Under the pieces are notes generated by a model that saw nothing but the letters and a program-made list of their open reading frames with translations, was not told the origin of the DNA and made no database searches. From Alphaproteobacteria bacterium (GTDB lineage Bacteria; Pseudomonadota; Alphaproteobacteria; CADEGL01): a stretch of DNA of 64,000 bases. Shown piece by piece: positions 11,940 to 16,632 of the stretch (the stretch's first letter is position 1; each line of letters opens with the position of its first letter). The translations under genes and the position numbers were made by a program. The DNA lies in the NCBI GenBank assembly GCA_026400755.1, contig JAPLOM010000025.1, positions 1 to 64,000 on the forward strand. Reading direction: 5' to 3'.

Positions 11940-12007
11940 TTCACGTTCTATTCCCCTATCCGAACCGGGGCCCCTTGACCGGGCCGCCCTGAACGGAAAT
12001 TCTTCCT

Positions 12008-12215
12008 TGTGTGTTGGTTCTCCGGTTTAGGCCGGAGAGGAAAGAGGGAACACGGTAAGCCGCATCTGCGGCCTAATCCGTGGCTGCCCCCGCAACTGTC
12101 AGCGGCGAGCCTTGGTCCGCATGGCCACTGGGAAACCGGGAAGGCCGGACCGCCACAGGCATTGACCCGCGAGCCAGGAGACCTGCCAGCACAGTCACCC
12201 AACCGATGGGTGGGG
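12008..12215 (+). ncRNA. cobalamin riboswitch
   Basis: GTTGGTTCTCCGG...AAAGAGGGAACACGGT...CCCCCGCAACTGTCAGCGGCGAG...GCCACTGGGAAACCGGGAAGGC...GCGAGCCAGGAGACCTGCC: adenosylcobalamin riboswitch core with B12 box. Confidence 0.95.
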
Positions 12216-12438: not shown

Positions 12439-14526
12439 ATGACTTGGAACATTCGCCGAACGCGAACGGGACTGAACGTGGCGTTGGCCGCCTGCACGAC
12501 GGCCGTCTGGACGACCGCCGCACTGGCGCAACAGACCACGCAAACCACGCCGACGCCGCAACAGGAACTGCAGGAGGTCAACGTCACGGCCTCGCGTTTG
12601 GGCACCGGCATCGCCGGCACGTCCACCACCATCATCTCAGCGGAAGAGATCACGCGTTCGCCGGATATGACCTTACAGGATCTTCTGTCCCGGCAAGCGG
12701 GCATCCAAGTTCAGAATCTGTTCGGCGGCGTGGACGGCGCACGCGACACAATCGACATGCGTGGCTTCGGCGCCTCAGCCGTTTCCAACACATTGGTCCT
12801 GATCAACGGTCGCCGTCTGAACGATGTCGACATGGCCGGCGTCGACTTTACGGCCATCCCGAAAGACGCCATCGAGCGCATCGAAATCGTACGCGGCAAC
12901 GCGGGCGTGGTCCTGTACGGTAACGGCGCCATGGGCGGCGTGATCAACATCATCACCAAGACCGGCGTCGCCGTGCCCAACTCCTATCGCGCCGACATGT
13001 CCTACGGTTCGTTCGATTACACCCAGGCCAACATCGGGGCGAATCAGTCGGTCGGAAACCTGGCCCTCGCGCTTTATGGAACATCCATCAATTCAAACGG
13101 CTACCGCGAGAACAACCAGTTCCAAGAGCGCAACATCCAAGGCGACGCGCGTTACCAGCTGGAAGGGGGCGAGTTGTACCTGACCGTCTCGGCGGACACC
13201 CAGCGCCTCGGCCTGCCCGGCGGACGCCTGGTCACGCTGACAACCAGTCAGGTCATCACCGATCCGACCGGCACGTCCACGCCGGACGACTATGCGAACA
13301 AGCAAGGCCTCAACATCACCCTCGGCGGCACGCATAAACTTTCGGAAGGCGTGCAGATGATCATCGACGCCGGCGTGCGCAACAAGGATCAGCAATCGGG
13401 AATCTTCAGCACCTTCGGCCCCGCGTTCGACAGCTATAACAACACCACGCTGACCACCTCGTCCTTCACGCCGCGCCTGGATGCCCAGCACCAGCTCGGC
13501 GATCTGCCGGGCAAGCTTCTGACCGGCATCGACGTCTACGGCTCGCTCTACGATTCTGACCGCATGCTTCATCAGGGCGATGCGCCGATCCATCACTACG
13601 ACCTGACCCAGATCACCGTCGGCCCATATTTCCAGGAAACCATCACGGCGTGGGGCAATACCGACATCGCCCTCGGCGCGCGCACGGAAACGGCCATGGT
13701 CTCGGCAACGGACACCTATGACGCCAGCGCGCCCGGCGGCGCCTTCGGCGTCCAAGGTGTGCCCTACAACAACACTCAGACGGATTGGGGCGGCCATCTG
13801 GGCATCAGCCACAATCTGACCGACGTGTGGACCTTGTTCGGCCGCGTCGGGCGCAGCTTCCGCCTGCCCAACGTGGACGAGCGGGTCGGCTCGGTGCCGT
13901 TCGGCGTGCCGCCCAACTTCGCCCTGCAGACCCAGACCTCGCGCGACTTCGAGGGCGGGTTCCGTGTGAACTGGGAAGGCATCAATTGGCAGACCAGCGG
14001 CTATGTGATGAATCTCAACAACGAGATTTTCTTCAGCCCGGCCACCTTCACCAACACCAATCTGGATCCCACGCGGCGCATCGGCTTCGAGAACGGCGCG
14101 ACGTACCGGATTTCCGACCCCGTGCTGCTGAAGGGCTCGCTGACCTACATCAACGCCACGTTCCGCAGCGGCCAGTTCGAGGGCAACCAAATCCCTCTTG
14201 TCTCGCCCTGGACGGGGAATGTCGGCATCTCGTGGAACGTCTTCCAGAAGTACATCATGCTGGACGCCGACCTCCGCTATATCGGCTCGCGTCGGTTCGA
14301 CAACGACGCAGCCAATTTCCAGCCGATGATGCCCGCGGTCACGCTGGTCGACCTCAAGGTCAGCGGCCAGATCGAGCGGTTCAGTTGGGCACTGACCGTT
14401 CAGAACTTGCTGAATAAAGAGAACTACTTCGACTATGGTATTGCCAGTACCGCGACCTACGGCACATACAACGCCTACACGATGCCGGGCCGTAACTTCA
14501 CCGGCAAAATCGGAATCAAGTTCTAG
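12439..14526 (+). CDS. btuB: TonB-dependent cobalamin/corrinoid receptor
   Basis: TonB-box/plug region VNVTASRLGTG, RGNAGVVLYGNGAMGGVINIITK, C-terminal barrel ending ...GKIGIKF; downstream of B12 riboswitch. Confidence 0.9.
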   Translation: MTWNIRRTRTGLNVALAACTTAVWTTAALAQQTTQTTPTPQQELQEVNVTASRLGTGIAGTSTTIISAEEITRSPDMTLQDLLSRQAGIQVQNLFGGVDGARDTIDMRGFGASAVSNTLVLINGRRLNDVDMAGVDFTAIPKDAIERIEIVRGNAGVVLYGNGAMGGVINIITKTGVAVPNSYRADMSYGSFDYTQANIGANQSVGNLALALYGTSINSNGYRENNQFQERNIQGDARYQLEGGELYLTVSADTQRLGLPGGRLVTLTTSQVITDPTGTSTPDDYANKQGLNITLGGTHKLSEGVQMIIDAGVRNKDQQSGIFSTFGPAFDSYNNTTLTTSSFTPRLDAQHQLGDLPGKLLTGIDVYGSLYDSDRMLHQGDAPIHHYDLTQITVGPYFQETITAWGNTDIALGARTETAMVSATDTYDASAPGGAFGVQGVPYNNTQTDWGGHLGISHNLTDVWTLFGRVGRSFRLPNVDERVGSVPFGVPPNFALQTQTSRDFEGGFRVNWEGINWQTSGYVMNLNNEIFFSPATFTNTNLDPTRRIGFENGATYRISDPVLLKGSLTYINATFRSGQFEGNQIPLVSPWTGNVGISWNVFQKYIMLDADLRYIGSRRFDNDAANFQPMMPAVTLVDLKVSGQIERFSWALTVQNLLNKENYFDYGIASTATYGTYNAYTMPGRNFTGKIGIKF

Positions 14527-14559: not shown

Positions 14560-15135
14560 ATGACCCCTCTCAAGCTCTTCGGCGTTGGCGAACGCAGCGA
14601 GACGGCGCAGAGACGCGCCGTGAAAGCCGCGTGGATCGGCCTGCTGATCGTCCCGAGCGTGATGGCCACCGGTGCCTTGGCCTGCGTCGCACCCTTCGCG
14701 GCCGTGGCCGCGCTGGCCGGCTTGACCCTGCCGCGCCGCGAGGCCTTGCTGACCGTGCTGGCCCTGTGGATCGGCAACCAGGCCGTGGGCTTCCTGTCGC
14801 TCGACTATCCAACGGACGCCAACACGATCGGCTGGGGCATCGCCATGGGCGCCGCCGCGCTACTGGCCGTGTTCGCGGCCGAGCGGTTCCGTGCCCGCCG
14901 CGACGCTGCCGGACTGGCCATCGGCTTCGCGGCGGCCTTCGTGGTCAACCAGGTTGCCCAGTGGGCGGCTTCGGCGTTCTTGGGCGCGGGCGCCGGCTTC
15001 ACGCCGGAGGTCATCGCCTATGTCGCCGTCATCAACGCGGTGTGGTTTGTCGCCCTGGCGGCGGGCCACTTGGTGCTGGTCGCCCTGGCGGAGCGCCGCG
15101 CGCGCGTCGCATTGGCGTCCCGCAAAGCGGCCTGA
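14560..15135 (+). CDS. about 6-TM membrane protein of unknown function in B12 operon; candidate corrinoid transporter (BtuM-like role proposed)
   Basis: highly hydrophobic 191 aa, single Cys (C42), motifs NQAVGFLSLDYP and TIGWGIAMGAAA; genetic context only. Confidence 0.6.
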   Translation: MTPLKLFGVGERSETAQRRAVKAAWIGLLIVPSVMATGALACVAPFAAVAALAGLTLPRREALLTVLALWIGNQAVGFLSLDYPTDANTIGWGIAMGAAALLAVFAAERFRARRDAAGLAIGFAAAFVVNQVAQWAASAFLGAGAGFTPEVIAYVAVINAVWFVALAAGHLVLVALAERRARVALASRKAA

Positions 15136-15147
15136 GGATTTGGCGAA

Positions 15148-15177
15148 CCGCCGCGCGGATTCCGGTCCGCGCGGCGG
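15148..15177 (+). repeat. intercistronic inverted repeat/hairpin
   Basis: perfect 12-bp stem CCGCCGCGCGGA / TCCGCGCGGCGG with 6-nt loop TTCCGG. Confidence 0.85.
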
Positions 15178-15190
15178 CGCGTCATCCGTC

Positions 15191-15844
15191 ATGCGGCCGG
15201 AGCTTCGCCCGCCTTGGCTTCTTCTCGACTTCGGTAAGGACCTTCGTCTTATCGGCTGGCCCGTCGTCGGCGCGGCGTTGGGCCCCGCGCGCCGCGTGGC
15301 GTGGCTGCAGGTGCGAAACGCCGACCTGCCGCCCGACCGCGATCCCACCGTCTATTTCACCGAGCGCGCCCAAGCCGCGGGCGTTTCGTTTGATGCGGGC
15401 CTGATGACGGCGGCAGACCTGCGCGGCTTCGCCGTCGCCCAACGCGCTGGCGGCGTTTCGGTCGTGGCGACGGGCGGACTCGGCAACGCGGAAAGCGTTT
15501 TATCCGCGGCGAGCGAACCGCGGAACGCGGCCAAGGTCGGAACCATTAACGTGGTCGCCGTAATCGACCGCTCCCTCACCCTCGCAGCCCAGATCGAAGC
15601 CTTGTCGATCGTCGCGGAAGCACGCACAGCCGCCGTCATGAGCTTCGGCCTGACCATGATGGGCGACGAACGTCCAGTCACCGGAACCGGAACGGACTGC
15701 ATCCTGGTCGCGGCGCCGGGCGACAAGGCGGGCCTCGCCCATTGCGGCCTGCATACGTCCATCGGCCGCGCGCTGGCGGAAGCAGCCTACGAATCCGTCA
15801 GAAACACATGTGCATCATGCTTGCGCGCGCCTTCGCTCCGCTGA
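15191..15844 (+). CDS. cbiZ: adenosylcobinamide amidohydrolase
   Basis: VATGGLGNAES, GTINVVAVIDRSLTLAAQIEAL, GTGTDCILVAAP, TSIGRALAEAAYESV: CbiZ family pattern. Confidence 0.88.
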   Translation: MRPELRPPWLLLDFGKDLRLIGWPVVGAALGPARRVAWLQVRNADLPPDRDPTVYFTERAQAAGVSFDAGLMTAADLRGFAVAQRAGGVSVVATGGLGNAESVLSAASEPRNAAKVGTINVVAVIDRSLTLAAQIEALSIVAEARTAAVMSFGLTMMGDERPVTGTGTDCILVAAPGDKAGLAHCGLHTSIGRALAEAAYESVRNTCASCLRAPSLR

Positions 15845-16632
15845 TCCGCGCCGACGGGCGCGAGCGGCGGGTGGCGCTGGCTGCGTCGCTGGCGTTTCAT
15901 GTCATTGTCATTGGCGCTCTGATCTGGCTGTTGGTGCCCTCGGCGGATGAGCGCGTGGCCACGGTCACGATCGACGTCACCATTGTCGGGCCGGACGGGA
16001 ACGAGGCGCCTACCCAAACCGGCAACGCACACACCCCGTCCGCCGCACAAGGCGCGCCCAGCCAGCACAAGCCGCCCACAGCCGCCGCGCGGGAAAACCG
16101 GCCGCAAAGCGCGCCGGCCTCGTTGGATTTCCCGCCGCCCCCATCGCCGCCATCGAGCGACGCCGTCATTCCGCCCGCGACACCCGCACCGCCCGAGTCT
16201 TCGTCCGCCCCGGCAACGACCGCCAACGCGCCTCGCGCGGACGGTTTGGCACAGCCAGGCAGCGCGGGACAAACCGGCGCTGCGGGCGCCGCGTCCGCGG
16301 GCAACGGCGATGCCGCATCTGCTGGACAGCCGGGTTCGGGCGAGGGCGACCGCCCGCCGCGCTATAAGTTGGGTTCGGGCTCTACGCCCTACCCGCCCTA
16401 TCCTGTGGTCGCGCGGCGCAATGGCTATCAAGGGCGCGTGGTCGTGCGGCTAGCCGTGGCCGCCGACGGACGCGCGACGGGCGCCGAGGTGCTGGAGAGC
16501 AGCGGTTATGACGTCCTGGACCAATCCGCCGTAGAGACGCTGAGGGCGTGGAAACTGGAGCCCGCGCTAACGGCAGGTAAAGCGGTACCGGGAAGCGTCA
16601 ACGTACCGGTGCGGTTCCGCCTCAGCGGCTGA
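15808..16632 (+). CDS. TonB-family energy transducer
   Basis: N-terminal TM, Pro/Ala-rich linker, C-terminal PPYPVVARRNGYQGRVVVRLAVAADGRATGAEVLESSGYDVLDQSAVETLRAWKLEPA. Confidence 0.9.
   Translation: MCIMLARAFAPLIRADGRERRVALAASLAFHVIVIGALIWLLVPSADERVATVTIDVTIVGPDGNEAPTQTGNAHTPSAAQGAPSQHKPPTAAARENRPQSAPASLDFPPPPSPPSSDAVIPPATPAPPESSSAPATTANAPRADGLAQPGSAGQTGAAGAASAGNGDAASAGQPGSGEGDRPPRYKLGSGSTPYPPYPVVARRNGYQGRVVVRLAVAADGRATGAEVLESSGYDVLDQSAVETLRAWKLEPALTAGKAVPGSVNVPVRFRLSG

Follow-up and report, generated by a model that had tools for sequence, protein, structure and literature searches.

Many Gram-negative corrinoid auxotrophs possess BtuB and lack BtuCDF, and in these organisms the inner-membrane importer is unknown (PMC6072759). 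The window analysed here, a stretch of 64,000 nucleotides from an alphaproteobacterial genome, raises the question of whether a small hydrophobic protein encoded at 14560..15135 (+ strand) could perform this step. A preliminary description had proposed that it acts as a stand-alone corrinoid transporter with an important cysteine, by analogy with BtuM, the solitary Cys-bearing cobalamin transporter of Thiobacillus denitrificans and its relatives (PMC6072759). Our analysis suggests that the protein is probably the missing inner-membrane B12 importer and that it is built unlike BtuM.

The gene lies in an operon with the order cobalamin riboswitch, BtuB-like receptor, candidate gene, cbiZ and tonB. 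The preliminary description had the operon position right and did not include the riboswitch, a full-length match to the RF00174 aptamer at the operon head (11998..12204, +; cmscan 111.6 bits, E 4e-27). The BtuB-like TonB-dependent receptor (12439..14526, +; start inferred) matches Pfam TonB_dep_Rec (E 1.7e-35) and Plug (E 1.1e-21), and its best NCBIfam model is TIGR01779, TonB-dependent vitamin B12 receptor, at 132 bits, under the equivalog cut-off. Downstream of the candidate gene are CbiZ, an adenosylcobinamide amidohydrolase of corrinoid salvage and remodelling (15191..15844, +; Pfam CbiZ E 2.4e-38), and TonB, the energiser of outer-membrane uptake (15808..16632, +; Pfam TonB_C E 2.6e-23), both with inferred starts. 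A strong GC-rich hairpin without a T-run separates the candidate gene from cbiZ (15149..15178, +; -40.3 kcal/mol for a 60-nt region in ViennaRNA), and could uncouple or tune expression.

The candidate is a real gene and more than a chance reading frame, because its comparison with an 89%-identical copy from another genome of the same genus gave a dN/dS of 0.17 over 79 nucleotide differences. This orthologue (L009) was the only match in a scan of genome contigs. The ORF starts with ATG and encodes 191 aa followed by a stop. As the preliminary description had claimed, the product is strongly hydrophobic and has exactly one Cys, residue 42 (codon TGC, 14683..14685, +). Hydropathy averaged over the family gives six hydrophobic stretches, consistent with a six-helix membrane protein. 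Lys and Arg residues per family member number 1.7 in L2, 1.9 in L4, and 2.3 and 2.2 in the termini, as against 0 in L1, 0.2 in L3 and 0.1 in L5. This charge pattern, together with hydropathy, predicts cytoplasmic termini and a position for C42 in loop L1, where helix 1 ends on the periplasmic side. By the same pattern the LDYP...WG motif would lie in periplasmic loop 3, within the conserved stretch NQAVGFLSLDYP...WGIAMG (14776..14850, +) that covers the end of helix 3, L3 and the start of helix 4.

Relatives were found by protein and profile searches in 23 genomes from 18 alphaproteobacterial genera, and an alignment of 24 full-length alphaproteobacterial members was assembled using further flanks. 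C42, P45, Q74, G77, Y83 and W92 are invariant in all 24, and P84, G93 and G97 are nearly so, which bears out the impression of conserved motifs given by the first reading of the sequence. The invariant set contains no His, Asp or Arg, and no Cys column other than C42 is occupied in more than 3 of the 24 members. A search of plasmid records (tblastn) added copies from Methylocella tundrae and from two Cyanobacteria, Gloeocapsopsis dulcis and Acaryochloris marina, together with a fragment from Qipengyuania citrea. Lack of conservation of C42 had been named beforehand as a refutation of the proposed role; the residue is kept in 24/24 alphaproteobacterial members and also in the Methylocella and Gloeocapsopsis copies, and is absent from the divergent Acaryochloris copy. 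No member was found outside Alphaproteobacteria and Cyanobacteria, and viral contigs held no relatives; three weak tblastn matches (L008, L019, L020) were not family members. The annotated plasmid copies examined are all labelled 'hypothetical protein'. No Pfam or NCBIfam model matched above cut-off for 16 members, and DUF2919, the sole weak Pfam match (E 0.03-0.09), lies far below cut-off and was rejected. Single-sequence and profile searches found no relative in the PDB.

The corrinoid link of the family is strong. A same-strand cobalamin riboswitch (RF00174) lies upstream of the member gene in the window and in 17/23 other loci (18/24 in all), representing 12 taxonomic families. The genomes for which riboswitches were counted contain 2-7 each, so well under one linked locus would be expected by chance. 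In four loci (L024, L025, L031, L091) 106-123 nt separate the end of the riboswitch from the member gene; in the remaining linked loci the distance is 2.1-3.5 kb, and most of these have an intervening TonB receptor. CbiZ neighbours the member gene in the window, L021, L088 and L089, TonB in the window, L021, L022 and L033, and an adenosyltransferase lies upstream of it in L024. BtuF-like proteins (PF01497) without a signal peptide overlap or abut the member gene (L024:6207-7004, L025:7057-7854, L026:7297-8064, L167:5380-6306, and directly downstream in L092); in L024, L025, L026 and L092 their start overlaps its stop. In L167 the Qipengyuania citrea fragment adjoins a gene annotated 'cobalamin-binding protein'. 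Four loci (L027, L029, L030, L032) are without both a linked riboswitch and any obvious corrinoid gene nearby; a linked riboswitch is also missing at L087. On the Acaryochloris marina plasmid the Cys-less member (L169:4708-5444) sits just behind a cobalamin riboswitch and ahead of class I ribonucleotide reductase genes.

Some of these neighbours would also fit a protein that carries a precursor of the lower ligand (dimethylbenzimidazole or alpha-ribazole) for corrinoid salvage, similar to CblT, which is a predicted S-component. The member gene accompanies cobT-cobS-cobU in L031, where cobT follows it, and cobT is found just downstream in L090, as DUF1636-cobT; moreover, CbiZ-type remodelling requires new lower ligands. 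We nevertheless regard this function as improbable, since BtuB-like receptors, TonB and BtuF-like proteins, one or other of which adjoins most members, deal with intact corrinoids.

The importer reading was examined further by asking which known B12 importers the member genomes contain. The genome of the window is 100% complete and has no FecCD/BtuC-type permease, no EcfT (PF02361), no BtuM and no CobH/CbiC, a marker of corrin-ring synthesis. Its sole weak FecCD match is ZnuB, located elsewhere beside ZnuC and Zur; the weak FecCD matches of G000 (the genome of the window), G001, G064 and G128 were rejected as BtuC because they are ZnuB or lie beside ZnuC, and that of G226 because it is LivH. 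Real use of corrinoids by this genome is implied by its second cobalamin riboswitch (G000:C8:51343-51555; L082:5344-5556), which lies upstream of genes for class I ribonucleotide reductase, the B12-independent isozyme. Six further member genomes (G001, G226, G241, G015, G128, G641) lack FecCD, EcfT, BtuM, PF06472 and CobH, although for G015, which is 77% complete, this is weak evidence. EcfT is absent from 18/23 member genomes (that of the window and 17/22 others). The importer reading rests on this combination, namely that the family sits in B12-controlled uptake operons of many Alphaproteobacteria, among them genomes in which none of the known types of inner-membrane B12 importer that could be searched for is present.

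Genes under riboswitch control are known to include a class of cobalt transporters (PMC3766115), and the candidate could in principle carry cobalt, or another metal or metal-chelate, under B12 control. The Gloeocapsopsis plasmid (L168), where the member is accompanied by a TonB receptor, DUF1636, two GTP-binding proteins, FolE and HisI and no riboswitch, resembles a metal-starvation cluster and points in this direction. Two observations make such a role very improbable: 13/23 member genomes, including that of the window, lack CobH and should hardly require cobalt uptake under B12 repression, and none of the invariant residues is a His.

Other observations speak against a solitary importer. FecCD-type permeases are present in 13/23 member genomes, in G418 (L083) the member gene comes after a riboswitch-SBP-FecCD operon, and the genome of the window encodes one SbmA/BacA-like ABC protein (PF06472), related to a mycobacterial B12 importer. 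The riboswitch-linked Acaryochloris copy without Cys and the five loci listed above weigh in the same direction. The FecCD permeases and the G418 operon indicate that the family does more than stand in for BtuCD. They also keep alive the possibility of an accessory membrane protein that binds corrinoids or modifies them chemically, for instance by base-off conversion or by decyanation with the help of a thiol, and passes them on to another importer such as a Btu ABC or SbmA/BacA-like one, for which co-operonic location with the SBP-FecCD transporter and the PF06472 protein would provide partners. We consider this role unlikely, because in the six member genomes without any known importer type there would be nothing to assist; one of them, G001, is the sister genome of that carrying the window and has no PF06472 protein.

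We favour direct import, and asked how closely the protein resembles BtuM. A BtuM reference was recovered, along with its relatives, from a riboswitch locus (L139) and identified by phmmer against PDB entry 8c7p, 'Cobalamin ABC transporter' (E 7.6e-42), with 8ovv also matched. Invariant positions of BtuM include Cys80, located in L3, and H28, D67 and Y85 (PMC6072759), which correspond to C79, H27, D66 and Y84 in the numbering of L139. The candidate is BtuM-like in its size (~190-200 aa, about 22 kDa), in having six helices with both ends predicted to be cytosolic from hydropathy and charge, in the single invariant Cys at the predicted periplasmic face, in the btuB context, and in a genome without an ECF module. 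In contrast, its invariant Cys would be in the loop joining helices 1 and 2 (L1), and is followed by P45, whereas that of BtuM is in L3 with a Tyr five residues on. Neither the CxxxxY motif of BtuM nor its H28, D67, Y85 and R153 have a counterpart in the family. The distributions also differ: BtuM was found only outside Alphaproteobacteria in a phylum sample of 399 genomes, and the present family only inside the class in an equal-sized sample.

Homology to BtuM was sought by profile comparison, as the preliminary description had advised, and gave no signal. Alignment with hhalign of 16 family members against 13 BtuM sequences yielded a probability of 0.2% (P 0.29), and 24 members against BtuM yielded 0.13%. 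An AlphaFold2 model built from two sequences, the window protein and L009, was of low confidence (pLDDT 54, pTM 0.37) and had no Foldseek match in the PDB at E<0.001; the matches of this poor model to GPCRs, ExbB and others are meaningless. BtuM, taken as a positive control, is likewise unmatched by any Pfam or NCBIfam model, so the missing S-component match says little about the fold of the candidate. That the protein is homologous to the S-component fold is a possibility we would hold only tentatively. It cannot be filed as BtuM, since that identity is not demonstrable from these alignments; as far as genomic evidence goes, it probably works analogously to BtuM. What this evidence supports well in the original proposal is a stand-alone corrinoid importer with an important Cys, in keeping with the riboswitch, btuB, tonB, cbiZ and cobT context, the invariant Cys on the predicted periplasmic side and the lack of BtuC, EcfT and BtuM in the genome. 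The structural analogy to BtuM as an S-component is not supported by the profile result, the placement of the Cys or the missing BtuM residues.

We consider it likely that the protein is an ATPase-free inner-membrane corrinoid importer, driven by cytosolic trapping, in which C42 would contact cobalt from the periplasmic side. The BtuB-like receptor and TonB would bring the corrinoid (B12, a cobamide or cobinamide) into the periplasm, where the six-helix protein, lacking an ATPase, would bind it at the periplasmic face and pass it to the cytosol. Processing would trap it there, by CbiZ in the case of the window operon and, in other species, by the adenosyltransferase, by CobT/CobS or by a BtuF-like binding protein that lacks a leader; the last of these would possibly act as a cytosolic corrinoid acceptor. 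Cys42 in L1 is the residue that probably touches the corrinoid; the likeliest form of this contact is ligation of cobalt by the thiolate, which in BtuM takes place from another loop. For cobalt ligation itself we put the chances slightly below even.

The protein can also be compared with ATP-driven systems. The BtuCDF ABC importer occupies the equal place in the pathway, after BtuB/TonB, and some members are coupled to a BtuF-like protein. In contrast to BtuCDF, the candidate has no match to the FecCD permease (PF01032), its operon encodes no ATPase, and the BtuF-like partners lack signal peptides. The ECF-type B12 importer (CbrT with EcfAAT) contains an S-component of similar size and helix number. 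Most member genomes lack the EcfT that such a system would include, and there is no Pfam S-component match, which is not decisive given that BtuM has none either.

For a set of Alphaproteobacteria, the family would fill the importer gap described above and offers in C42 a defined residue. Should it transport alone, BtuM would no longer be the single example of solitary B12 import; should cobalt also be ligated, and from a different loop, this would suggest that the chemistry evolved more than once. It is conceivable, though we would not presume it, that the family is a convergent second group of solitary, ATPase-free corrinoid importers whose cobalt-ligating periplasmic Cys sits in loop 1 and not in loop 3, and which in some lineages have a translationally coupled cytosolic acceptor of the BtuF fold.

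Searches of the literature for an earlier account of this family turned up only the label 'BtuN', without explanation. One of the organisms in which this label is used, Rhodocyclus, is a betaproteobacterium. There and in a Methylobacterium, 'BtuN' is named beside BtuB as a predicted B12 transporter in PATRIC/RAST-style annotations, and the text of these papers gives neither sequence nor mechanism with which the present family could be compared (PMC8954225, PMC7038796). If 'BtuN' is this family, the transporter role is an earlier prediction, and the mechanism and the Cys are without description in the cited text. Naming the family would mend the annotation gap left by 'hypothetical protein'.

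Two minor observations concern its neighbours and copies. In L034, L088, L089 and Methylocella tundrae the receptor and member genes are separated by a gene of the DUF7676 type; the order in Methylocella is riboswitch, TonB receptor, DUF7676-like protein and member. The Pfam match (PF24724) was run for the L034 copy alone. Proteins of this type are encoded at L166:4317-4919 and L168:3938-4879, the latter, from Gloeocapsopsis, appearing fused to an Fe-S/DUF1636-like domain; the DUF7676-type protein is evidently tied to the corrinoid uptake pathway of the member gene. Finally, the Qipengyuania citrea plasmid copy (L167:4989-5378) appears truncated, and its C-terminal part, from about helix 3 onward, is the only part that can be read.
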